Origin: Geobacteraceae bacterium
Lineage (GTDB): Bacteria > Desulfobacterota > Desulfuromonadia > Geobacterales > DSM-12255
Assembly (NCBI GenBank): GCA_013377075.1
Contig: JACABD010000009.1
Coordinates: forward strand, 1-39,171
Direction: 5' to 3'
Length of the DNA: 39,171 nucleotides
Shown here: in pieces, positions 1 through 30,114 of the stretch
How positions within the stretch are numbered: the stretch's first letter is position 1
How the letters are laid out: each line of letters begins with the position of its first letter
The notes under the pieces: model-generated
Told to the model about the DNA's origin: nothing
What the model saw: the letters and a program-made list of their open reading frames with translations, nothing else
The model's database searches: none
Position numbers and translations under genes: made by a program

Positions 1-7
1 GCAACCA
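1..7 (+). tRNA. 3' end of a tRNA (probably initiator tRNA-Met), truncated by the window edge
   Basis: The first seven bases, GCAACCA, fit the acceptor end of a tRNA: discriminator A followed by encoded CCA. Bacterial initiator tRNA-Met typically ends in CCCCGCAACCA. A terminator hairpin begins ten bases later and an integrase remnant follows, which is the usual arrangement at a tRNA attachment site. Only seven bases are visible, so identity is inference; sequence left of the window would settle it. Confidence 0.4.
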
Positions 8-16
8 AAAACATTC

Positions 17-50
17 AAGCCGCTTAGCTTAACTGCTAAGCGGCTTTTTT
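17..50 (+). terminator. Rho-independent terminator after the tRNA
   Basis: Perfect 12-bp stem (17-28 with 35-46, core AAGCCGCTTAG / CTAAGCGGCTT) with a 6-nt loop, followed by a T run to position 50. The stem lies just downstream of the putative tRNA 3' end and points rightward. Confidence 0.85.
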
Positions 51-106
51 GTTTCCCCACTCATTTTTCTCTTATCCCCACCCTGAAGACAATAGTTAAC
101 AGAGTT

Positions 107-424
107 GTGCCAATCAGTAATAAGTTGAAATTAAAACTTGATGGCTATGATTCTTTAATGATAGAAAGTAAGTGGTTCTTTTCTTCACCTACTGGTAATC
201 GCCGGGATCCGGACAATTTTTCCCGTTATCTGCGGAAAGCGAATGGAGAGGCAGGGCTTGACTGGAACTGTCTTGATTTCCGGCATACGTTCGGGAGTAA
301 GTTGGCTATGAAGGGGGAGAGTCTGTATAAGATTTCCGCCTTGATGGGGAATTCACCGGAGATTTGTCGCAGGCATTATGCGGCTTTGATACCGGAGGCT
401 ATGATTGAGAGTGTGGAATTTTAA
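107..424 (+). pseudogene. Tyrosine recombinase (phage-type integrase), C-terminal remnant
   Basis: The visible protein covers only the end of a tyrosine recombinase catalytic domain: a VPIS strand, a box-II-like FRHTFGSKLA stretch, and the ISALMGN...RRHYAAL segment that carries the tyrosine nucleophile. The N-terminal SAM-like/core-binding domain and the first catalytic Arg are absent. Of the remaining catalytic residues, the His of HxxR is Leu (LDFR) and the His/Trp of LGH is Asn (MGN), while Arg and Tyr are kept. The frame stays open upstream of the GTG at 107 and reads integrase-like (KTIVNRVVPIS), so homology begins near position 80 without a proper start. It sits about 70 bp from the tRNA-like 3' end. 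I read it as a decayed integrase left by an island inserted at the tRNA. Confidence 0.8.
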
Positions 425-479
425 GTTAATTACATCAACTATAATTGATTATACTGCCTATGAATAGGTCTAAGGAACA

Positions 480-1739
480 ATGATGAGTATGTTTTCTTTG
501 TCAAACAACAAGATTAAAACAATAATTGTTGTATTTTTTATGTGTATGGCTACATCAAAACTAGTTCATTCAGAAAAAGCAATGCCTAGTCGTAACGTAA
601 ATAATATATCCAGTGAATCATATTCTAAAGACGAAATAACTTATAAGATAGATTTAATAAATAAAGATATTAAATCACTTGAAGAGAAATTTGATATAAA
701 AAAAGATGTCATTGCTAATGCACAGCAGAACGTTAATTTTTGGCTTACAGCCATATCAATTTTCGTAGCTGTTTTCGGTGTTGGATTCCCATATTTAATA
801 GGGAAAAAGTACAGTATAGAATATCAAACAGCTGTCGATGCTGCTAAGGCGGCAGCTGAAAGTGCTAATGATTCAAGAAAACTTATTGAAAGTGAATTGT
901 TAGAAATTAAATCACTTAAAGAGGAATCAGAACTCAATGCAAACATTATTAAAGAGAAAGCTGCAATAATTCGTAATATAAATATTTCAGAACCGATCAC
1001 TGAGACTCAGATTAATACTGTCAATGAAGTCGCTTCCGACCCTCATGCACCAAGTCGTGAAAGGCTAATGGCGCTTGCGATCCAAGCACGAGAAAAGAGA
1101 GATTGGCACAACGCAATATGTCATTGGAGATCTTTATATGCATTATATCCAAATGATGTCGAGATTCTTTTTTCTTTAGCGTATGCAATCCAATCGCTAG
1201 CTAAGGAAACTCCTAGAGAAGAGCGTTCTAAATTAATATTAGAATCTATAGAACTATACTTAAAAGTTAACCAGCTGTCGCATGAAATATCAACTTATCT
1301 CAACCTTGGTACAGCTTACGATGACCTAGCAAAAGTGGTTGATGATGGAAAAATAGACTTATATAAAAAAGCTTTAGATTGTTTCAACACAATTTTAGAG
1401 ATTAAACCAAATCATTTAGCGGCATTGAAAAACCTTGCTGTTGTTACTATTCACTTAGCTAAACTTACTAGTGGAGATGCAACCCTAGAAAAATTTTCAG
1501 AATCCATTTGTTACTCTAATGCATCTGAATCCATAAAGTATGGATCGGGTGCATATAATCTTGCATGTGTTTATTCACTATGTCGTGATATGGATACCTG
1601 TAAGAAATGGTTAACTATAGCTTCTGAAACTGATCAGTTGCCACCAATAAAGCACATGAGCACAGATACTGACCTTGATAATGTGAGAGATGCAGAATGG
1701 TTCAAAGAGATAACAGCTAAAGCAAAGATGAATTCTTAG
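480..1739 (+). CDS. AT-rich TPR-repeat membrane-anchored protein, function unknown
   Basis: This 419-residue protein has a hydrophobic N-terminus (residues 11-30, signal peptide or anchor), a predicted coiled coil (about 50-80), a clear transmembrane helix (about 87-107, FWLTAISIFVAVFGVGF), an Ala/Glu/Lys-rich coiled coil (about 115-165), then TPR-like helical repeats from about residue 190. The last repeat ends with YNLACVYSLC and TDLDNVRDAEWFKEI, a pattern common at the end of TPR arrays. Start ATG 480 is preceded by an AAGGAAC box. The gene is much more AT-rich than the core genes, which fits horizontal acquisition. It probably scaffolds protein contacts at the membrane; no catalytic motif is visible and I do not assign a function. 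Confidence 0.75.
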   Translation: MMSMFSLSNNKIKTIIVVFFMCMATSKLVHSEKAMPSRNVNNISSESYSKDEITYKIDLINKDIKSLEEKFDIKKDVIANAQQNVNFWLTAISIFVAVFGVGFPYLIGKKYSIEYQTAVDAAKAAAESANDSRKLIESELLEIKSLKEESELNANIIKEKAAIIRNINISEPITETQINTVNEVASDPHAPSRERLMALAIQAREKRDWHNAICHWRSLYALYPNDVEILFSLAYAIQSLAKETPREERSKLILESIELYLKVNQLSHEISTYLNLGTAYDDLAKVVDDGKIDLYKKALDCFNTILEIKPNHLAALKNLAVVTIHLAKLTSGDATLEKFSESICYSNASESIKYGSGAYNLACVYSLCRDMDTCKKWLTIASETDQLPPIKHMSTDTDLDNVRDAEWFKEITAKAKMNS

Positions 1740-1765
1740 AATACAAAAACTTAATAATGCTTGAA

Positions 1766-1797
1766 ATAAAAACCCCGGGGACTTGCGGAGCCGGGTT
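1766..1797 (-). terminator. Terminator for the minus-strand HTH gene
   Basis: Read on the minus strand, a GC-rich stem (AACCCGG with CCGGGGTT, one bulged base; arms at 1791-1797 and 1771-1778) is followed by a T-rich tract (plus-strand As at 1766-1770). It lies about 40 bp beyond the stop of the excisionase-like gene. Confidence 0.6.
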
Positions 1798-1835
1798 AGT
1801 TGTAGAGCAGTTCTTCAATTGTCTTGGTTTTGTTG

Positions 1836-2042
1836 TTAGTTGGTTATTCTTGCTTCATAAGCTTCCACCTCCTTTCTGATGAATCTGACAATTCCGTTTT
1901 TACCTTCCCCGAGATAAAGCTTTTTCAGCCCAGCCCTTGTAGCGATTCGGTCAACTGATGATCTGCCGCAACGCCATCTTTCGGGCAGTTCATTAGGTGA
2001 AACATAGGGGGAAAGCTTTTCTTGCTCCTTATGCTTCGCCAT
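1836..2042 (-). CDS. Excisionase/AlpA-like small winged-HTH DNA-binding protein
   Basis: The 68-residue product has the layout of MerR-superfamily excisionase-like proteins: a short lead, then SPNELPERWRCGRSSVDRIA (helix-turn-helix), a basic wing with GIVRFIR, and a terminal helix EVEAYEA. I chose ATG 2042 because an AGAAGGTG box lies about 7 nt upstream; a GTG nine bases earlier is also possible. The start overlaps the end of the upstream reading frame by 14 nt, so the two are probably translationally coupled. Such proteins act as recombination directionality factors or phage-type regulators; the integrase remnant nearby supports a mobile-element origin. Confidence 0.7.
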   Translation of the reverse strand: MAKHKEQEKLSPYVSPNELPERWRCGRSSVDRIATRAGLKKLYLGEGKNGIVRFIRKEVEAYEARITN

Positions 2043-2382
2043 CGTAGTCACCTTCTGTTTCCGGATTCTTGCCGAGCTTTATTCTTCTCTTGTAAAATTC
2101 TTCCTGAAAGTTTGCCTCCGGGCAGTAGTCCGCTATTTTCACTTCAAGTTGGTTGAATACCTCCTTGCGGTCTGCTATCCCAAGACGTGCGGCAACCGAA
2201 GCCACACAGCCGGAAATGTGAGAGATGAACCATTCAATTATTGCAGGGGTGTCACCCTTGAAAGAGCGTTGCACTTCTATGGCTGTCCCGAATCTCTTTC
2301 CCGTTGCTTGAATTTCAGACCAGAGTGGGTGAATCGATCTTCTTTCACTCTTTTCATTGTCAGGTAAACGGAGAGAGAACAA
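2029..2382 (-). CDS. Conserved-looking hypothetical protein upstream of the excisionase-like gene, start unclear (possibly truncated)
   Basis: Not recognised. The product is soluble with mixed helices and a charged C-terminal tail. The only start in this frame is a TTG at 2382 with no convincing ribosome site. Upstream the frame remains open to a stop at about 2445, through a protein-like stretch (VNNVKRYVGIYLTEN) with no ATG or GTG. This suggests the native 5' end was lost when the adjoining higBA module arrived, or that the gene starts from a rare codon. It overlaps the next gene by 14 nt and is transcribed away from higB. It may be a replication or regulatory gene of the original element, but that is a guess. 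Confidence 0.5.
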   Translation of the reverse strand: MFSLRLPDNEKSERRSIHPLWSEIQATGKRFGTAIEVQRSFKGDTPAIIEWFISHISGCVASVAARLGIADRKEVFNQLEVKIADYCPEANFQEEFYKRRIKLGKNPETEGDYDGEA

Positions 2383-2406
2383 GTTTTCAGTAAGGTAGAT
2401 GCCGAC

Positions 2407-2442
2407 ATAACGCTTGACGTTATTAACGCGCAGAGGTATTTT
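2407..2442 (+). promoter_or_regulatory. higBA promoter with overlapping operator palindromes
   Basis: A sigma-70-like pair TTGACG (2414-2419) and TATTTT (2437-2442) is spaced by 17 bp. Inverted half-sites overlap it: ATAACG (2407-2412) with CGTTAT (2418-2423), and CGTTA-T-TAACG (2418-2428). Antitoxins of this family autorepress by binding such palindromes. The -10 box ends 6 bp before the higB ATG, so a transcript from it would be nearly leaderless. Confidence 0.55.
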
Positions 2443-2448
2443 CTAATC

Positions 2449-2730
2449 ATGATACTTAGCTTTGCTGATAAAGAAACAGCCGCCATCTTTTCAGGGCTTG
2501 CTGTCAGGCGTTTGCCTTTAGATATGCAGCAGACAGCACGGCGCAAGCTGCTACAGTTAGATGCGGTCAGAATGATTGATGAGTTGCGGATCCCGCCCGG
2601 CAATCGACTTGAGGCATTGAAAGGAAACCGAAAAGGTCAATGGAGCATAAGGATCAATGATCAATGGCGGATTTGTTTTCTTTGGAAAGATGGCAACGCC
2701 GAAGATGTTCAGATAGTGGATTATCACTAG
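2449..2730 (+). CDS. higB: HigB-type toxin, RelE/ParE superfamily mRNA interferase
   Basis: The 93-residue protein matches the HigB / plasmid-maintenance killer family: F.DK.T..IF.G near the start, RRKLLQLDAV, LRIPPGNRLEALKG, then QWSIRINDQWRICFLW and a C-terminal VQIVDYH. These are the conserved basic and aromatic positions of the RelE fold, and the length is typical. HigB toxins cleave mRNA on the ribosome and are neutralised by HigA. The antitoxin gene follows 9 bp downstream, in the toxin-first order typical of higBA. It belongs to the accessory island, where such modules stabilise mobile DNA. Confidence 0.92.
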   Translation: MILSFADKETAAIFSGLAVRRLPLDMQQTARRKLLQLDAVRMIDELRIPPGNRLEALKGNRKGQWSIRINDQWRICFLWKDGNAEDVQIVDYH

Positions 2731-2739
2731 GAGAAGAGA

Positions 2740-3117
2740 ATGACTATTAAAAGAGAAGAAATAGACAATATAGACTTTTCTGATGTGTCGGACGGAACCA
2801 GACTTGCTCCTGTTCATCCGGGGGAAATCCTGCTGCATGACTTCATGGAGCCGCTGGGAGTGACTCAACATAAGCTGGCCGTGACGATTGGCGTGCCACC
2901 ACGAAGGATAAACGAGATTGTGCATTTTAAGCGTGCAATTACTGCTGATACTGCTTTGAGGTTGTCGCGTTTCTTTGGTACTACTGCAAATTTCTGGACT
3001 GCTTTGCAGGCTGCATTTGATACGGAAAACGTTCGCTCGCAGATATGGGAATCTTTAAAAGCTATTCCTCGATATGATCCGCGCCTTTCAGGCCAAAAGC
3101 ATAAACTGGCAGCTTAA
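2740..3117 (+). CDS. higA: HigA-type antitoxin, XRE-family HTH protein
   Basis: The HigA/VapI signature is clear: VHPGEILLHDFMEPLGVTQ, then the helix-turn-helix (about residues 40-62, LAVTIGVPPRRINEIVHFKR), ITADTALRLSRFFGTTANFW and a terminal helix. At 125 residues it is longer than the usual 95-105 because of an acidic N-terminal extension of about 20 residues. A GGAGAAGAG box precedes ATG 2740. It should neutralise HigB and repress the operon through the palindromes before higB. The following SET-domain frame starts inside its 3' end. Confidence 0.92.
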   Translation: MTIKREEIDNIDFSDVSDGTRLAPVHPGEILLHDFMEPLGVTQHKLAVTIGVPPRRINEIVHFKRAITADTALRLSRFFGTTANFWTALQAAFDTENVRSQIWESLKAIPRYDPRLSGQKHKLAA

Positions 3118-3583
3118 ATTGAATACTCCTAACTTCAAACATTACTCCGATGGATCAACTCACAAAATTGATGCAAAAGAGGCAGATTATCTATTTATCA
3201 AGGAGTCGCAAATCCCTGAATCCGGCAATGGACTATTCACGGCAATACCGATTTTTAAGGATGAAGTGATTTCTATCTTCAAAGGTAAGATCTTATCCAA
3301 TATGGAAGCAGAACATAGAACCGCCAAGGGTAAGGATTCATATTTTATCAATCTGCCTGACGGCACTATCATGGATTCAATGACCGTGAAGTGCTTTGCC
3401 AAATATGCCAATGATGCTATGGGCTTTACGAAGACAATACATAAAAACAATTCAAAGATTTCATTGGATGTAAACGGTAAGGTCTGTGTTGTAGCTACCA
3501 AAAAGATACCCGTAGGAGCCGAGATATTCTGTGGGTATGGGAAAGGGTATTGGAAGAACAGTAAGTTGTCGTCGCTGATGTAA
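3074..3583 (+). CDS. SET-domain protein (candidate protein-lysine methyltransferase)
   Basis: Motifs of a SET domain are visible in order: IPESGNGLFTAIPI (N-terminal SET strand, G-x-G-L-F), DGTIMDS, CFAKYANDA (equivalent to the NHxxxPN region, here Y-A-N-D-A), and IPVGAEIFCGYGKGYW (equivalent to GEELxxDYG). SET proteins transfer methyl groups from SAM to lysine side chains; bacterial members are scattered and often horizontally acquired. The start is uncertain: ATG 3074 overlaps higA by 44 nt, while a TTG at 3119 directly after the higA stop would remove the overlap. Neither has a clear ribosome site. Translation from the higBA transcript is likely. The substrate is unknown, and a non-catalytic binding role cannot be excluded. 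Confidence 0.75.
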   Translation: MIRAFQAKSINWQLKLNTPNFKHYSDGSTHKIDAKEADYLFIKESQIPESGNGLFTAIPIFKDEVISIFKGKILSNMEAEHRTAKGKDSYFINLPDGTIMDSMTVKCFAKYANDAMGFTKTIHKNNSKISLDVNGKVCVVATKKIPVGAEIFCGYGKGYWKNSKLSSLM

Positions 3584-3629
3584 TCTGGATACGCACTATC
3601 CCGTTTTCAATATGCAATAAGCCTTAGGT

Positions 3630-3920
3630 TTATCTCCCGGCTTTTACGTAAAATGCATTAAGTATTCTTCTCCCATCAATCACTCCTCTGACAATGCAAT
3701 CATTCCCAGTTTGACAAGTAGATAAGATCTTTCTGCCTGCCGCAGAAGACGGATCAAAATAGTATCCATTTTCACCTGAAGTTATAAGCAAGCTCTTCCC
3801 TTTAGATGTGGTCCCAAGAATGCCATGAACAGTGGCTATTTTGTGTGCAGCAAAAACATTCCCGGAAGAGACACCAATCGCAAACAGAAACAATGAAGTA
3901 GCAAATAATCGGGTTTTCAT
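3630..3920 (-). CDS. Small exported (periplasmic) protein, function unknown
   Basis: The 96-residue product starts with a classical Sec signal peptide (MKTRLFATSLFLFAIG... with cleavage after VFA, about residue 24). The mature part of about 70 residues has two cysteines (CQTGNDC) that could form a disulfide, in a beta-rich stretch (DCIVRGVIDGRRILNAFYV) suggestive of a small barrel. A strong AAGGAGG box precedes the ATG. It is transcribed alone toward the SET gene. I do not recognise the family. Confidence 0.7.
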   Translation of the reverse strand: MKTRLFATSLFLFAIGVSSGNVFAAHKIATVHGILGTTSKGKSLLITSGENGYYFDPSSAAGRKILSTCQTGNDCIVRGVIDGRRILNAFYVKAGR

Positions 3921-3953
3921 ATTTACAAGCCTCCTTGTAGTCGTTTAAGTTAT

Positions 3954-3987
3954 TAATATTACTATAGCATATCTGTAGTAAATATTA
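3954..3987. promoter_or_regulatory. AT-rich inverted repeat upstream of the exported-protein gene
   Basis: The arms TAATATTACTA (3954-3964) and TAGTAAATATTA (3976-3987) pair with one bulged base around an 11-nt centre. It lies about 35 bp upstream of the minus-strand start at 3920, in the divergent gap before the gene at 4085, so it may be an operator or promoter element. Confidence 0.35.
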
Positions 3988-4084
3988 TTAGTCATAGGCT
4001 GGATTATAGGTGTTGAATTAATATATATTTACGATATGCTGCTGTTAGCAGGTTGGGAAAACCAGCGGCATCGATGGAGGCAAT

Positions 4085-4366
4085 ATGGATAAAATTCAGG
4101 TAAAGTTTGATTTTATTACTGAAGCATGTGGTGAGATTCAGCAAGCTCTTTTCAAACATTTAGTGGTGGCTATTATGAGTGATGTTGATTCTGATAAAGT
4201 AGGAGCAAGCACAGAGTTGCTTTTGAGGCTTGCAGCAAATGACTTCAAAAATAGACTTGCTCAGATACCAGAGAAAAAGATCAGGATTAAAGAGATCGTT
4301 CAATCACTGAATGATGTTCACAGGCATGTATTGTCAATAAACTCATTATCAGGAGGACTATCATGA
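4085..4366 (+). CDS. Small hypothetical protein, first gene of a two-gene unit
   Basis: The 93-residue, mostly helical protein is not recognised. A GGAGG box sits 5-6 nt before ATG 4085. It overlaps the next gene by 4 nt (ATGA), so the pair is co-translated. The partner carries an HTH domain, so this protein may be a cofactor or antagonist of that regulator, but nothing in its own sequence shows this. Confidence 0.65.
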   Translation: MDKIQVKFDFITEACGEIQQALFKHLVVAIMSDVDSDKVGASTELLLRLAANDFKNRLAQIPEKKIRIKEIVQSLNDVHRHVLSINSLSGGLS

Positions 4367-4554
4367 CTCTCGGAAAAAGTTGGTGCTCAATTGGTGAGGC
4401 TTCAGCAAAATACAGCTTGGACAAATCATTGATCCAGAAATGGGTTGATGAAGGTCTGATTCGTACAGAAGAAGACAGCAATAAAATGATCCAGCTTAAT
4501 CTGGATGATCTTGAGCTTGAGGTTAAGGAAAGGGTGGAGCTGTTTAAAAAGTAG
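4363..4554 (+). CDS. Small MerR-like HTH protein
   Basis: The 63-residue protein has the compact MerR/excisionase helix-turn-helix: SIGEASAKYSLDKSLIQKWVDEGLIRTEED, then a short wing (NKMIQLNLDDLE) and a terminal helix. The start ATG overlaps the upstream stop (ATGA) and has its own AGGAGG box. There is no effector domain, so it may be an Xis-like or small regulator of mobile-element type. A terminator follows about 60 bp downstream. Confidence 0.7.
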   Translation: MTLGKSWCSIGEASAKYSLDKSLIQKWVDEGLIRTEEDSNKMIQLNLDDLELEVKERVELFKK

Positions 4555-4614
4555 GCTTAATCTATCTATCCGAATAATCTGTTTTGAATAGGAATGCGCC
4601 ATAAATGGTAAATT

Positions 4615-4648
4615 AAGCCTGCCGGGTTATGGCGGGCTTTTGCTTTTT
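4615..4648 (+). terminator. Rho-independent terminator of the two-gene unit
   Basis: Stem AAGCCTGCC (4615-4623) with GGCGGGCTT (4631-4639), one T-G pair, 7-nt loop, followed by TTTGCTTTTTT. Confidence 0.85.
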
Positions 4649-5075
4649 TGACAGAGTTATTGCTGGTTGATCATGATAATCTGAAGTGGCAAGCCAACAA
4701 AAAACGGTTAGTTTAATAGGTCAATTATAATTTGAAAAATGAGTCCACAGCTGCCTGTTGATAACTCTGCCCAAGCTGTGGACAAGAGGTAAAAAAACTT
4801 ACTAATAGCGGATGCTTTTCCGCTATGCCTATTTTTTGGGCACTATGTGTAAGTAGCTGATTTGGCGTGTCAATGGTAGATTTGACGTCTGTGAAAAAAA
4901 GATTTTGTGCTAATTTTCACATTGACATCAGTATAAGCTGATGTGACTCAAACAAGTGGATAAATGCCTGAATAATGGTCTAATGATCTGGCTCAATTGT
5001 CAGCATGTTAAAAAGAGCGTTGGCTAATCAGCCATCTCTATTCATTTCATAAGAAGAGATGTTTCAGTCTCGCGA
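4649..5075. other. Gene-free stretch rich in inverted repeats and DnaA-box-like words
   Basis: No supported gene. Visible structure: a perfect 10-bp inverted repeat GTCCACAGCT / AGCTGTGGAC (4743-4752, 4774-4783); an 8-bp hairpin ATAGCGGA / TCCGCTAT (4805-4826) with a T run shortly after; TGTGAAAA / TTTTCACA (4890-4897, 4914-4921); ACATCAG / CTGATGT (4925-4944); and CATCTCT / AGAGATG (5033-5061). Words one mismatch from a DnaA box (TGTGGATAA) occur at about 4757 (TGTTGATAA), 4778 (TGTGGACAA) and 4956 (AGTGGATAA). It lies between the island genes and the helicase gene. It could hold a relict replication origin, a regulatory region or the island border. Confidence 0.4.
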
Positions 5076-23984: not shown

Positions 23985-24680
23985 TTACTTTGAAATAAAA
24001 AACTTCACCGCACTGAAAACGACATCAAGCAGATCCGGCTCCGATCTCATCCTGAGGTTAAAGGGGTCAAGGTCATCATACTCAGCTGTTGTGCCACCTC
24101 TGACACGGCTTTGCCGGTTTTGTTCCGCCGTAATCAGTGTATCTTTTCTCCGTTCCTCTTCCCGTTCACGGTCAAGCAGCTTTCCGCCGGACTTCATCCA
24201 TTCAGCAAGCTGTCTCAGCTCTCCGGCGTCAAGCCAGACGCCATGTTCCTTGCATCTGTCAATGACAACTCCGCTGTGGGTGCCAAAGTTTATCCTGTTC
24301 ATTATTTTGGCGCATACCGGACATTTCACATAGGTTGCGCTGCGCCTCTCTGCCTGCTCTGACAGGGTAAACGCAGCCAGTCTGCTGCGGTTGATCTCGA
24401 AAACATTTTTGACAGAGTAGTCGAGAAGCGCTTCCAGTTCGCCCGGATCGAAGAAGAGTCCAAGGCACTCTTCGCAGCGTTCGATGAAGAATTTGCCTTC
24501 GATGCCAAGGTCTATTGTCTTCATCGGTATATTGCAGACTGGACAGATTCTTTCTGTGTCATTTTCGTGGGCGGTGTAGTAGTGAACGCCTGTCAGGTCA
24601 ACATCATTGCGGCTTCCGCAGTAGTCGCACTTGACGGCATTTACGGGTAGGGGGGCGGAACAGTTGGCGCAGTTAGGCAC
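23985..24680 (-). CDS. Zinc-ribbon protein with two TFIIB-type zinc fingers
   Basis: The 231-residue product has three metal sites: an N-terminal ribbon (CANC...CDYCGS), and two zf-TFIIB-like repeats (CPVC...RCEECLGLFFDPGELEAL and CPVC...RCKEHGVWLDAGELRQL), then a charged linker and a hydrophobic tail (LLDVVFSAVKFF). I chose GTG 24680, 8 nt after a GGAG box; this removes the overlap with the upstream gene. It is the last gene of the six-gene minus-strand operon. A zinc-ribbon partner next to an SPFH/virion-core-like protein parallels YdjG/YdjI of Bacillus subtilis, which work with PspA at the membrane; a similar role here is inference. Confidence 0.8.
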   Translation of the reverse strand: MPNCANCSAPLPVNAVKCDYCGSRNDVDLTGVHYYTAHENDTERICPVCNIPMKTIDLGIEGKFFIERCEECLGLFFDPGELEALLDYSVKNVFEINRSRLAAFTLSEQAERRSATYVKCPVCAKIMNRINFGTHSGVVIDRCKEHGVWLDAGELRQLAEWMKSGGKLLDREREEERRKDTLITAEQNRQSRVRGGTTAEYDDLDPFNLRMRSEPDLLDVVFSAVKFFISK

Positions 24681-24700
24681 GTTGAAAACTCCGGAAACGT

Positions 24701-25789
24701 TTATGTGAGAGGTGGCGGAGTTGTGAAGAAGTGCGAGAATTCGCTGAACTCGCCTGCCATCTGCCACTTTTCCATCCCGGCGCACCAGAGGAGGGTATCT
24801 CTGGTTACTCTCCCTTCGGATATCTCTTTGCTGATGGCTTCAATGGGATAAGGGCCGCTCTGCTTGCCGTCTTTGCCGACAAAATATTGTTTCGGCGCAT
24901 CAAGCGGTGGCGGTGTCGCGGTCAGTGCAGTCTGAGGTGACATTGCTTTACCGAGCTGGTTTGCCATGGCAAAGCCGATACCCATGCCGATTCCTGCTGA
25001 TGCTTCCCCGCCGGGGTTTTTTGCCGCAGCTTCCATGGCAGTTCCACTTTGGAACTTCAAGTAGGTGTCCATGTCACCGATGATACCCATGCTGCTCTTC
25101 TTGTCAAGGGCCGCCTCAACTTCCGGGGGGAGGGCGATGTTTTCAATGAGGAGTTTGGTTACTTCAAGGCCGTACTCTGCGAACTCAGGCAGCACCCGGC
25201 TTGCCAGGGTTTTAGAGAGCTCATCGTATTTCGAGGCGAGATCGAGAAGGGGGATGCCACTTTCACCGACAAGGTCGGAAAATCTTGTGACAACGAGGTT
25301 TCTGAGTTGATCTTCAATCTCTTCTACAACAAAGCGTCCGCTTGTTCCGGCAATTTCGTTGATGAATTTTGCCGGGTCTGAAACCTTGATGACGTAGCTG
25401 CCGAAGGAGCGGATGCGAACTGCGCCAAACTCCGGATCGCGGAGGATGACAGGGTTTTTGGTCCCCCATTTGAGGTTGGTGAAATTCTTTGTGTTTACAA
25501 AGTAGACTTCAGCCTTGAAAGGGGAGTGAAAACCGTATTGCCACCCCATGAGTGTGGTGAGAACCGGCATGTTATCGGTCATCAGTTTGTGTTTTCCAGG
25601 GGGGAAAACATCAGCAATCTTACCCATGTTGACAAAAACTGCTACCTGGGACTGCCTGACAATCAGCTGTGCACCATACTTTATCTCGTTATCGAAGCGG
25701 GGAAAGCGCCAGACCATGGTGTCGCTTGAGTCATCGGTCCATTCGATAATGTCGAGAAGTTCGGCCTGTGCTTTTTCCCAAAGAGACAT
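24701..25789 (-). CDS. SPFH (band 7/virion-core-like) protein with C-terminal GYF_2 domain
   Basis: The 362-residue protein starts with the COG4260-type SPFH domain (about 1-235; QVAVFVNMGKIADVFPPGKHKL, NLKWGTKNPVILRDPEFGAVRIRS-like blocks, then ALPPEVEAALDKKSSMG). A Gly/Ala-rich hinge (about 255-290) leads to a GYF_2 domain (about 305-360: YFVGKDGKQSGPYPIEAI and LLWCAGMEKWQMA). SPFH proteins oligomerise on membranes and GYF_2 domains bind partners. AGGAGG precedes ATG 25789. It is 9 bp downstream of the MshEN gene and 20 bp upstream of the zinc-ribbon gene. Likely a membrane scaffold or stress protein. Confidence 0.88.
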   Translation of the reverse strand: MSLWEKAQAELLDIIEWTDDSSDTMVWRFPRFDNEIKYGAQLIVRQSQVAVFVNMGKIADVFPPGKHKLMTDNMPVLTTLMGWQYGFHSPFKAEVYFVNTKNFTNLKWGTKNPVILRDPEFGAVRIRSFGSYVIKVSDPAKFINEIAGTSGRFVVEEIEDQLRNLVVTRFSDLVGESGIPLLDLASKYDELSKTLASRVLPEFAEYGLEVTKLLIENIALPPEVEAALDKKSSMGIIGDMDTYLKFQSGTAMEAAAKNPGGEASAGIGMGIGFAMANQLGKAMSPQTALTATPPPLDAPKQYFVGKDGKQSGPYPIEAISKEISEGRVTRDTLLWCAGMEKWQMAGEFSEFSHFFTTPPPLT

Positions 25790-25798
25790 GAATTCCTC

Positions 25799-26671
25799 CT
25801 ACATCAGCGAGTTTGACTGTTCCTTGCGGTGTGGCGTGTATGCCCGTCCTGCGGCAATTGCCCGTCCTGTTCGGGCTGTCAGGGTAATATCTTTTACCGG
25901 CATCTGGATATAGTCGAAAAAACCTCTTTTAAAGGCCGTTGCTTCTTCCTCCATGCTGCCACTGTTGGAGAGAAGAATTACCGGTATCCTTCTGGTTTCG
26001 GCGACGCTTTGCAGTGTGGTGAAAAAAGCGAAGCCGTCTGAAAAAGGCATGTCCTTGGCAGTTATGATGACTTTTGGCTGGTAGAGCAGTGCCTGCTTGA
26101 AGCCTTCCTCAGGGTCGACCCCATACATGGTGTTGAATCCGTCGTTATTGAGTGTCTCAACCAGTTTGATCCGCTCCCTGTTGTCGGTATTGACCACAAG
26201 AACGGTATTATTCATCTCTTCAAGGGAGATTCCCAGATGCTTACGGGCAACAATCTTCATTATCTCTTTGGTTGTCGTAATAAAGGGGATAATCTTGAGG
26301 TTAAGCTTTGTGGATAGTTCAGAAATGATCTCGTAGTTTGTGGGATCCGCCATGGCAAGGGCAAGTCTGCCGTCCTTGACCTGGATCGGGAAAATCCTGT
26401 TGTTAACAGCCTCTTCCACCGGGATCATGTTGACGGTCCCGTAGGGAATATCCATTGTCGAGAGATTGGAGACAATCTTGTAGCCGAACTGCAGAGCAAG
26501 GGCGCTTGCCAGCTCTTCTCCTGTCAAAAGCCCCATGTCTTCAAGGGTCTGGCCAAAGCGACGGTGGGTGGCATGGGAAATTTCGATAATTCTGTCCACT
26601 AGGTGAGAAGTCAGTATCCCCTGATGGATCAGGATCTCTCCCAGCTTCATTCTTCCTGCCAATGGGTCCAT
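25799..26671 (-). CDS. MshEN domain fused to a degenerate receiver domain
   Basis: The 290-residue protein has an N-terminal MshEN/T2SSE_N-type domain (about 8-145) with two LG..L...G...L helical motifs (KLGEILIHQGILTSHLVD and RFGQTLEDMGLLTGEELA), the pattern that binds cyclic di-GMP in MshE. A receiver-like domain (about 155-275) follows. Its phospho-acceptor position is Ala (IITAKDMP) and its conserved Lys is Met (YIQMP), so it cannot be phosphorylated in the usual way. No ATPase domain is present. A GGAGAG box precedes ATG 26671. It probably senses a nucleotide and passes the signal to operon partners. Confidence 0.85.
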   Translation of the reverse strand: MDPLAGRMKLGEILIHQGILTSHLVDRIIEISHATHRRFGQTLEDMGLLTGEELASALALQFGYKIVSNLSTMDIPYGTVNMIPVEEAVNNRIFPIQVKDGRLALAMADPTNYEIISELSTKLNLKIIPFITTTKEIMKIVARKHLGISLEEMNNTVLVVNTDNRERIKLVETLNNDGFNTMYGVDPEEGFKQALLYQPKVIITAKDMPFSDGFAFFTTLQSVAETRRIPVILLSNSGSMEEEATAFKRGFFDYIQMPVKDITLTARTGRAIAAGRAYTPHRKEQSNSLM

Positions 26672-26692
26672 GGGCTCTCCTGAAAACCTGCA

Positions 26693-27547
26693 TTACAGGG
26701 TTAGTGTCATCCCTTCGGTTGCAACAAAACAGTCCAGGCTGCTGCCCGCCATCCTGATCCTTTCCTGACAGATGGCAAGCTGTTCATCAAGCTCTTCATC
26801 CGTTCTGTCGGGGTCATGGTGGAAAAGACCCAGCCTTTTTACCCCTGCCTTGATGGCAAGGTCTACTGTCGAGTTGAAGGTTGAATGCCCCCAACTACGG
26901 GTCTTCTTGTACTCTTCATCATTGTATTGAGAATCATGAATCAGAAGATCAACCCCCCTGAAGATATCGACAAAATAGTCAGGATCGGGACCCCCTTCAT
27001 GGTGATAGTCAAGTTCGTTGTCCGGAGCAAAAGCGAAAACCTTGCCCTCTTCGATAATCCTGTAACCGAATCCGCCGTTTGGGTGGTTGACCGGGAAGGC
27101 CTTTACCCCAAGCTCATCAAAATTGCAGACTCGGTCTTCATGACAGGGATTATCGCAGTGGAATATCATGTTTGCATTCAAATTGTCCAGTTCTAATGGG
27201 AAAAATGGAGCCTGCATCTGGTGGGAGAGAAAGTTTTTGACAGTGTCCTGGCTATGGGGGCCGGAGCAGAATCTTAAAGTGTAGTCGCTTCTGTAGGCAG
27301 GGGGGAAAAAGGGGAAACCCATGAGGTGATCCCAGTGTGAGTGGGTGAAGAAAAACCTGATATGCTTCTGGCTGACTTCACTGACAAGTTCGTTGCCGAG
27401 TTTATGCAGACCTGAGCCTGCATCAATGATGACGAGCTGCCCCTGATTTGATCTGATCTCAAGGCAGGTGGTGTTCCCTCCATATTTGAGGGTGGATCTG
27501 CCAGGCGTCGGCAGCGAACCACGACATCCGCAGATTTTTATCTGCAT
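26693..27547 (-). CDS. MBL-fold metallo-hydrolase (phosphodiesterase-like)
   Basis: The 284-residue protein has the metallo-beta-lactamase metal motif THSHWDH (HxHxDH), a preceding IIDAGSGLHKLG strand, a second His in FPVNHPNGGFGYRI, an Asp in FAPDNELD, and a late His in GLFHHDPDRTD. The opening KICGCRGSLPTPG and the KYGGNTTCLEI block are typical of the RNase Z/PhnP/cyclic-phosphodiesterase-like branch. There is no signal peptide, so it is cytoplasmic. The start overlaps the metalloprotease stop (TAATG). The substrate is unknown; a cyclic nucleotide or phosphodiester is plausible given the nucleotide-binding-type neighbour. Confidence 0.88.
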   Translation of the reverse strand: MQIKICGCRGSLPTPGRSTLKYGGNTTCLEIRSNQGQLVIIDAGSGLHKLGNELVSEVSQKHIRFFFTHSHWDHLMGFPFFPPAYRSDYTLRFCSGPHSQDTVKNFLSHQMQAPFFPLELDNLNANMIFHCDNPCHEDRVCNFDELGVKAFPVNHPNGGFGYRIIEEGKVFAFAPDNELDYHHEGGPDPDYFVDIFRGVDLLIHDSQYNDEEYKKTRSWGHSTFNSTVDLAIKAGVKRLGLFHHDPDRTDEELDEQLAICQERIRMAGSSLDCFVATEGMTLTL

Positions 27548-29514
27548 TAAATCGTCACTCCGGCAGCGGGAAGTCTTGCCGCAAATCTTTTGCGTAGCCC
27601 TACAAACGACAGCAACGCAAGGATTGAGGCCGCAGAGGCAGTGATCCAGAGGTGGCTGACCGCAAGGATCAGCGGTGCGAGAAGCAGTCTGACCATGAAC
27701 CTGGCTGCCTCGTGCTCTCTTATGAAGTCCGCAATCGGCGGGCTTATCCTGTAGTATAGGGCTACAAAGGCTTTGCCGGGTGCGTTGGTGAGAAGATGTC
27801 TGTCCCTGAACTGGCGCAGGGTCATGACCTGTGGGTGCAGATAGCTTCCGTAGGCCGCTGTGGCAATGAAACAGCCGCCACCTCCACCGCCGGATGATGA
27901 TGGCGTTGTTGAGGTGGTGCCTTTTAGCTGGGCGTAGCAGTTGCTATTAGTGCCGCCGGCTAAGCCCACACAAGTCCAGTTTAACGAGTAGTTGCCGAGT
28001 AATTGAGGGGGGGCTCCAGATGAACACATTTGGTTATCTTGTGGGATAACATCTAAAATCTGGCCATTTGCAGTGCCGCAAACGCCATTTGTAAGCGTTG
28101 GCGTAGATCCATCAGTGCTGATACTGACAGTTTCTGTATCGCTTGTTGAGGTATTGATAGCAATGAGAGTGATTTCATCTGTTGATGGGTCAAGAGTGTT
28201 GAAATTGTTTACTGTGTATGTGTATTTGGTCCCAGTGCCACCTGGGTTTTCTGCGATATCAGAGAAACCTGCAGCGGTCTTTTTGAGCAGAGAGGTTTGA
28301 GTGCCACTAGTGCTGTTGATCGATATGGTGAGGTTTGAGATGGTGGTAGATGGTAAGAATTTCAAGTATTTAATGCCATAGTGAGGCAGTGCTATTGAAG
28401 ATGCCTGCGTTGTTGCTGTATTCACCGGGTAGCTACTAAATAGTTCCTTGATTGCCAGTGGTCTGGAGTATAGCAGATTCAGTTCGTTGGTGTGAGAAGT
28501 CCATTCCTTTGTATATAAGCGTCTGGCAAAAGCCATGAACTCGCTTGGAAGTGAGCTGGACATGCTCGTCATGGTGTTGTCGATGACCGGTAGCATAGGA
28601 ATGTCAGCTCCGGTTGTTGACGTTATGCCGCCAAGTTTTTCCCAAACTGCTTTGATAGCGGCTACTCCGTGGTTTTCGGCAAGAAGACGGTTGAAAATCC
28701 AGTGACTGTAACCACCATCTGCCGGGGTGTCGAGGCTCTCTTCCGGTTTTATCAGGTAGTCCCTAGTGTAATCATATAACTGGTTAACCGAGTCATAGAC
28801 TTCATCTTCCATCCATGATGCAGTTGCTTCTGCATACCATAGTTCGAAGTAGTAGTTGTAACCGTACTGGATTGCATGATGGAATTCATGTGCCGCGGTT
28901 ATCTTCAGGAGAGCAAGCGGATTATATATAAAGAAAGACGTGAAATCGGGGTCTATTGAAATGTAACTTGTTGCGCTGTTTCCAGATAATGATTCGGAAG
29001 TGGTGAGTCCAAGATATCTACTTTGGCCTAATGGGTCTATCAAGACCTGAAGGTAAACATCATAGGGGATGTTCGGTGGTTGAGAGTACCCCAAGTAGCT
29101 AACTTCATATGTGTAAACCTCTTCAAAAATATCAGCAACTTTTTGTGCCCAGCTTGTAATTGTGTATGGTGGAGCTGGCACTGGTTTGTCGCTGCCAGTT
29201 GTAGCGTAGTGAATAATGAAGTGGCCGCCAGATGAAAGCAACGAGTTTTCGCTAGCCAGCGTCGGCGTCTTTAGATATTTTGCAAGTGTACTCTGGGTGT
29301 TGCTTTGAAGTTTTTTCCAGTCACGCTTGAGGTTGTGCCGAAGAGGCATACCGCATTTGTGTATCTTCGGTGTCAGGGTGCTTTTTTCCACAACCTTGGC
29401 AGTGGAGGGCGGCAACTCTCCGAACTGCTGCAGGTAGTAGGTATCCAGCTCTCCGGCAAAAACGTTGCCTGCGGCTATAAGTGTAATCAGTATCAGCAGT
29501 TTAAATGCTTTCAT
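27547..29514 (-). CDS. Secreted HExxH metalloprotease with CFI-box C-terminus
   Basis: The 655-residue protein has a signal peptide (cleavage about residue 20, VFA|GE), then a zinc-protease domain with HEFHH (209-213) and a downstream Glu in [12 protein letters not shown] (229), as in the MXAN_6640-type family. A beta-rich linker follows, then a cysteine-containing module (GVCGTANGQ...[12 protein letters not shown]), a Gly-rich run, and from residue 548 the [10 protein letters not shown] motif, with [19 protein letters not shown] and hydrophobic segments. This CFI-box C-terminus is a recurrent tail of exported proteins, thought to be a sorting or anchoring signal. It overlaps its neighbours on both sides by 1 nt. 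Confidence 0.85.
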
Positions 29515-30011
29515 CAGTCAGCCATCCTTTTTCCGCCTCTGATCGGTACAAATGTTGTCTCGCCTTCCCTGATGGTGAATTCCCTTTTAATCCCTCTACA
29601 GAAGAGCTCGTAATCCCCTTTGTGCAGGTGGTTAAGAAAATATCCGTTTTTATCGGTTATGGCAACAGAAACGCCATCTGTTTTGCCTTTGAAAGTGACC
29701 TGCTCGTTAGCATAGGGTATAAAGTGACTCTGTGCCGATGATTTCCCGCCAGTTGATTGAAGGTAGCATATCCCGGCAACAGCACCGGTCCCTTTGGGTA
29801 AGGGGGGTGTGGCGGTCGGATCGGGCTGTACGTCGGATGCTGCCGGAAGGTGTCCATTGCGAACCCAGATTGCTGCAGCTGTGTTGCTTGTTGCTATAGA
29901 AAACCGATTGCCGTCAAACACGTACGGACTCCATTTTGATGCGGTTATCCCTGCACAGGAGAAGATTGTCGGAAGCGCTGTCAATGCGAGAAAATATATT
30001 GCTCTCTTCAT
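29514..30011 (-). CDS. Lipoprotein, possible carboxypeptidase-regulatory-like fold
   Basis: The 165-residue product has a lipoprotein signal peptide ([19 protein letters not shown], lipobox IFSC). The second half ([44 protein letters not shown]) reads like a carboxypeptidase-regulatory/beta-sandwich domain (T.DKNGYF.....GDYEL), seen in surface proteins. I chose ATG 30011 with a GGAG box 6 nt upstream; the ATG 18 bases earlier has none. The stop overlaps the metalloprotease start by 1 nt, so it is the first gene of the operon. Confidence 0.75.
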
Positions 30012-30114
30012 CTTTGCTCCATTGCTCATTTTGCAATAATGTTTTTAGAGGTAAATTAATCTAGCAAACAGATGCTGAAAGGGCAATAAGAGGTTGTTAT
30101 ATCGGTTTTTTGTC

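Follow-up and report, generated by a model that had tools for sequence, protein, structure and literature searches.

What do six tightly packed genes between recN and ffh in a Geobacteraceae genome have in common? The genes lie on contig JACABD010000009.1 (assembly GCA_013377075.1), of which a stretch of 39,171 nt was analyzed (the window). All six are on the minus (-) strand and encode, in order, a putative lipoprotein, a secreted metalloprotease, a metallo-beta-lactamase (MBL)-fold hydrolase, an MshEN-pseudoreceiver protein, an SPFH-GYF_2 protein and a zinc-ribbon protein. A sequence-only reading of this DNA had assigned these domains, which Pfam and NCBIfam bear out, and had proposed that all six genes act together in a signalling path. 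Our comparison indicates that the locus is very probably a composite operon, in which a resident lipoprotein-protease pair and a separate four-gene cassette are joined by a 1-nt overlap. In our reading, known parts have been assembled here in a lineage-specific way, and the result is not one conserved new pathway.

To place the locus, we used 58 genomes of the order and 277 genomes of the class. The full six-gene set was found in no other genome of either collection, and a conserved six-gene system was therefore rejected. Because it is seen in one genome only, the six-gene arrangement itself is of little importance. Its parts are distributed separately. Among the 58 order genomes, the lipoprotein was found in 45 and the N-terminal domain of the protease in 47, with the two genes adjacent in 42; the lipoprotein is the constant upstream partner of the protease. 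SPFH occurs in 35 and the zinc-ribbon protein in 28, adjacent in 20 and both present but unlinked in 7 further genomes. Nearly every genome with the zinc-ribbon protein (27 of 28, a raw count uncorrected for relatedness) also has SPFH. In three genomes with both genes on one contig, SPFH lies 1.7-2.5 Mb from the protease. The lipoprotein-protease and SPFH-zinc ribbon pairs are thus separate units elsewhere, megabases from each other in closed genomes, which leaves the proposal that all six genes act together without support. Unlinked homologues in relatives had been named beforehand as the outcome that would count against a joint system. For the six as a set this is largely what we found, but a block of four genes recurs.

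This block, MBL-MshEN-SPFH-zinc ribbon, is present in the same order in a congener (G010; L036/L057), flanked by trmJ and a PAP2 phosphatase-like gene. No protease pair lies there; in this congener it is next to ffh on a different contig. Recurrence at this second locus (L036) supports functional linkage of the four genes, so the proposed signalling path retains partial support for these four and loses it for the six as a set. Beside trmJ, another genome (G034; L035) has MshEN-SPFH-zinc ribbon, and a further one (G037; L034) has MshEN alone, with MBL alone elsewhere. The SPFH and zinc-ribbon proteins of three congeners are monophyletic (support 99/97 and 94/96), which indicates that the block has a common ancestry. 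The simplest history would be stepwise growth at the trmJ locus, from MshEN to MshEN-SPFH-zinc ribbon to the four-gene block. A later rearrangement would then have carried the four genes to their place after the protease pair in the source genome. In relatives, GNAT and TldD genes come after recN, indicating that the recN side of the window is rearranged. The contig carrying the source genome's trmJ ends 62 bp beyond that gene.

The gene layout in the window agrees with the earlier description of tight packing. The lipoprotein-protease and protease-MBL junctions are 1-nt overlaps, the latter with the sequence TAATG, and the remaining gaps are 21 bp (MBL-MshEN), 9 bp (MshEN-SPFH) and 20 bp (SPFH-zinc ribbon). 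Shine-Dalgarno-like sequences precede the gene starts at the junctions. Convergent recN is 5 bp from the run, and divergent ffh is 206 bp away. Scans for internal terminators and promoters gave nothing convincing, with counts near the shuffled expectation (13 vs 9.5 and 9 vs 6.8), and no structured RNA was found in the region. From these operon-like junctions and near-chance scans, co-transcription appears likely; the layout is most naturally read as a single transcription unit. One sigma-70-like match (11/12) falls inside the SPFH gene and could mark an internal promoter.

The boundary between the two modules is also visible in the proteins. N-terminal export-type hydrophobic segments are present in the lipoprotein and the protease, which also has hydrophobic C-terminal stretches. 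The SPFH, zinc-ribbon, MBL and MshEN-pseudoreceiver proteins have no hydrophobic segment. The split into two export-targeted and four apparently cytosolic proteins therefore coincides with the module boundary drawn by comparative genomics.

Three other explanations for this arrangement deserve consideration. The single-strand layout and the two overlapping junctions, including the one that crosses the module border between protease and MBL, would suit one integrated six-protein envelope-stress pathway, with the protease and lipoprotein sensing the envelope and the cytosolic four relaying the signal. We regard this as quite improbable: the full set is confined to the source genome, many genomes have the protease pair but none of the other four, and those four occur without the pair. 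In addition, no protein bridges the membrane between the halves, except perhaps through the C-terminal hydrophobic segments of the protease. The junction could instead be a product of misassembly, since the source is a metagenome-assembled genome in 126 contigs and the protease-MBL junction is seen in no second genome. However, a random join would rarely give a clean TAATG stop-start overlap of two intact full-length genes, there is no abrupt step in base composition at the junction, and the contamination estimate is low (0.44%, at 95.5% completeness). Misassembly is thus very improbable.

The third possibility is that a rearrangement joined unrelated genes by chance, so that beyond the two old pairs nothing is linked and MBL and MshEN are passengers. 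Compared with relatives, both the recN locus and the ffh locus show rearrangement, and orthologues of MshEN and MBL are solitary in several genomes. Passengers, however, are not expected to keep the order MBL-MshEN-SPFH-zinc ribbon in two species, at loci that are unrelated, nor MshEN-SPFH-zinc ribbon in a third. A chance operon is a possibility we take seriously and still think unlikely, and we favor the composite operon with a linked cassette.

If the four cassette genes are linked, what might they do? The SPFH protein (24701..25789) matches Band_7_1 (E=4.7e-102) and ends in GYF_2 (E=9e-16), and its neighbor (23985..24680) is a TFIIB-type zinc ribbon with CxxC pairs (Zn_ribbon_TFIIB, E=6e-20). 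The zinc-ribbon protein begins at GTG 24680 (VPNC..), where its homologues begin; the mechanical open reading frame starts at 24785, inside SPFH. The nearest functional model is pspA-ydjGHI of B. subtilis (PMC8581546; PMC11237479), which also encodes an SPFH protein with a zinc-ribbon protein. In both systems the SPFH protein on its own is probably soluble, so that a partner would have to bring it to the membrane. The two systems also differ. YdjI ends in a zinc ribbon, whereas the window SPFH ends in GYF_2, and, unlike YdjG, the window zinc-ribbon protein has no transmembrane segment (maximum 19-residue mean hydrophobicity 0.77). The SPFH protein has none either.

PspA/IM30 was searched for in the source genome with PF04012, giving 0 matches, while the same model matches in 9 of 14 controls. 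No TPM-domain YdjH was found among the operon proteins by Pfam and NCBIfam; the rest of the genome was not searched for it. A full YdjI-PspA equivalent was rejected because no PspA was found. The earlier analogy to YdjI/YdjG with PspA therefore holds for an SPFH protein with a zinc-ribbon partner and fails for PspA and for membrane-spanning segments. By this analogy, the window SPFH-zinc ribbon pair may be recruited to a membrane complex as YdjI is, but it is not a member of that system.

The GYF_2 domain also resembles that of the Myxococcus gliding proteins GltJ and AglX (GltJ, E 2e-6; PDB 7z3c, E 8e-4). The likeness to GltJ is confined to this small domain, and the whole SPFH protein scores 27 bits against a cutoff of 450. 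Our literature search on GltJ, GYF and zinc found nothing. In one genome (G037; L055:5069-6731), a more distant SPFH protein ends in SHOCT, not GYF_2, and a zinc-ribbon gene still adjoins it.

The MshEN-pseudoreceiver protein (25799..26671) matches MshEN (E=2e-10) and Response_reg (E=2e-9). In its receiver, ITAKDMP replaces ITDK.MP, VNTD replaces VDDD and QMP replaces KP. In an alignment with some 30 relatives, T-A-[KR]-[DE]-M-P, V-[ND]-T-D and M-P are shared by the window protein and four close orthologues, whereas most paralogues have T-D-x-x-M-P, V-D-D-D and K-P. This clade, found in 7-8 of the 277 class genomes, thus no longer has two residues that most paralogues keep, the phospho-Asp (TAK vs TDK) and the Lys of xKP, which confirms the earlier call of a pseudoreceiver. 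Loss of these residues makes conventional phosphotransfer by the receiver unlikely. More distant solitary pseudoreceiver orthologues have 65-53% identity. PADLOC gave only a weak receiver-domain match (E 9e-5), and a defence island was rejected.

The MshEN site for cyclic di-GMP (c-di-GMP) consists of two 24-residue motifs and a 5-residue linker (PMC5013675). In the window protein, motif II is intact except for L39F, and the linker is intact. Nucleotide sensing, as proposed earlier, is plausible, although the binding motif is degenerate over one half. Less conserved MshEN sites were still picked up in a c-di-GMP screen, and substitutions at charged positions, among them Arg9 and Gln32, had an effect of at most about fivefold (PMC5013675). 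Bdellovibrio Bd2402, a stand-alone MshEN-receiver protein for which tight c-di-GMP binding is reported (PMC5013675), shares the domain pairing. The window protein differs from Bd2402 in lacking the phospho-Asp, in its degenerate motif I and in lying with an SPFH scaffold gene. In the source genome, a paralogous MshEN-receiver gene heads an operon-like run (L076:5038-10899), followed by genes for a HEAT-repeat protein, an HD-domain protein and a PilB-type ATPase that itself carries MshEN-like repeats.

The MBL hydrolase (26693..27547) belongs to Lactamase_B_2 (E=8e-13), and its metal-ligand histidines and aspartates and WGH region are invariant in 14 relatives. Its predicted model (predicted local distance difference test score, pLDDT, 88) is most similar to RNase Z, YhfI and PhnP (Z 24-27), with Apyc1 at about 20. 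The protein carries THSHWDH, which fits the [T/S]HxHxDH signature that YhfI, Rv1339 and CpdA, the atypical class-II phosphodiesterases, have in an MBL fold (PMC9293780); fold and signature are shared with Apyc1 as well (PMC9117128). Compared with these enzymes, it has about 14-20% identity by structure and falls below the curated cutoffs. The gene is rare (4 of 58 order genomes; 14 of 277 class genomes). Its relatives adjoin genes for a GAF-sigma54 activator, a methyl-accepting chemotaxis protein (with a cyclic nucleotide-binding protein nearby), a hybrid histidine kinase and HDOD proteins, and these neighbors favor a signalling role for the family. An apparent HDOD-MBL gene fusion in one genome (G206; L090) was rejected, as the long open frame apparently reads the HDOD gene out of frame. 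MBL and/or MshEN genes of this group lie near guaB/guaA in three genomes (L036, L034 and L109), directly upstream of guaB in one. This proximity might point to a tie with the supply of guanine nucleotides, or it might be shared synteny.

Together, these features suggest a mechanism in which all four cassette proteins are cytosolic. SPFH-GYF_2 would oligomerize into a membrane scaffold and bind its zinc-ribbon partner. The MshEN-pseudoreceiver would read a nucleotide, most likely c-di-GMP, and relay the signal by protein-protein contact and not by phosphotransfer. The MBL enzyme, acting as an atypical class-II phosphodiesterase like YhfI and Rv1339, would trim the nucleotide signal locally. The protease pair would share a promoter here but most likely retains its own envelope function.

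Several findings weigh against this proposal. The four-gene block is known from two genomes only, and solitary MshEN-pseudoreceiver orthologues occur in four (L034, L116, L117 and L118). MshEN motif I is degenerate (R9K, L25V, L29I and Q32S), and c-di-GMP may therefore bind weakly or not at all; against the c-di-GMP-motif model, the domain scores 37.8 bits, with a cutoff of 38. The MBL protein scores 46.7 bits against the cyclic-nucleotide phosphodiesterase cutoff of 400 (NF041851) and 78.9 bits against the RNase Z cutoff of 292.95 (TIGR02651).

The cassette mechanism as a whole is therefore tentative, and we would sooner expect some part of it to be wrong; taken together with the composite architecture, the combined reading stands a little better than even. 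Still more speculative, and in our view improbable, is the idea that these four genes form a membrane-scaffold system independent of PspA, with SPFH/zinc-ribbon assembly controlled by a second messenger that is read without phosphotransfer and switched off by the phosphodiesterase of the same operon. If the cassette works by the mechanism proposed above, it would connect nucleotide second messengers directly with SPFH scaffolds in bacteria without PspA. It would also give a handle on the Band_7_1-GYF_2/zinc-ribbon pairs, which are common in the order and for which we found no assigned function.

The remaining two genes form a common pair, and the protease is an ordinary member of its family. 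The protease (27547..29514) scores above both NCBIfam cutoffs, as an MXAN_6640-family metalloprotease (NF045524; E=6e-57, 193.5 bits vs 140) and for its C-terminal CFI-box domain (NF041770; E=4e-32, 109.9 bits vs 40). It has the motifs HEFHH and WYAEAT, and HExxH is kept in relatives. Our literature search on CFI-box and MXAN_6640 found nothing. The putative lipoprotein (29514..30011; 165 aa) has a signal peptide (..LPTIFSC) and matches no curated family; ATG 30011, preceded by GGAG, offers a better ribosome site than the open ATG at 30029. In the family of the source genome, the pair is mostly divergent from ffh, in most cases with a nucleoside phosphorylase-superfamily gene between them that is absent in the window. 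This gene is seen at L058:4316-5059 and at L061:7336-8160; in L061, it and the lipoprotein gene share a few bases. In another family, the pair lies near leuA/leuC/leuD-type genes, named from their translations. Elsewhere in the window, positions 1-5000 have a GC content of 0.37-0.43 compared with about 0.50 in the rest, and may be horizontally acquired.

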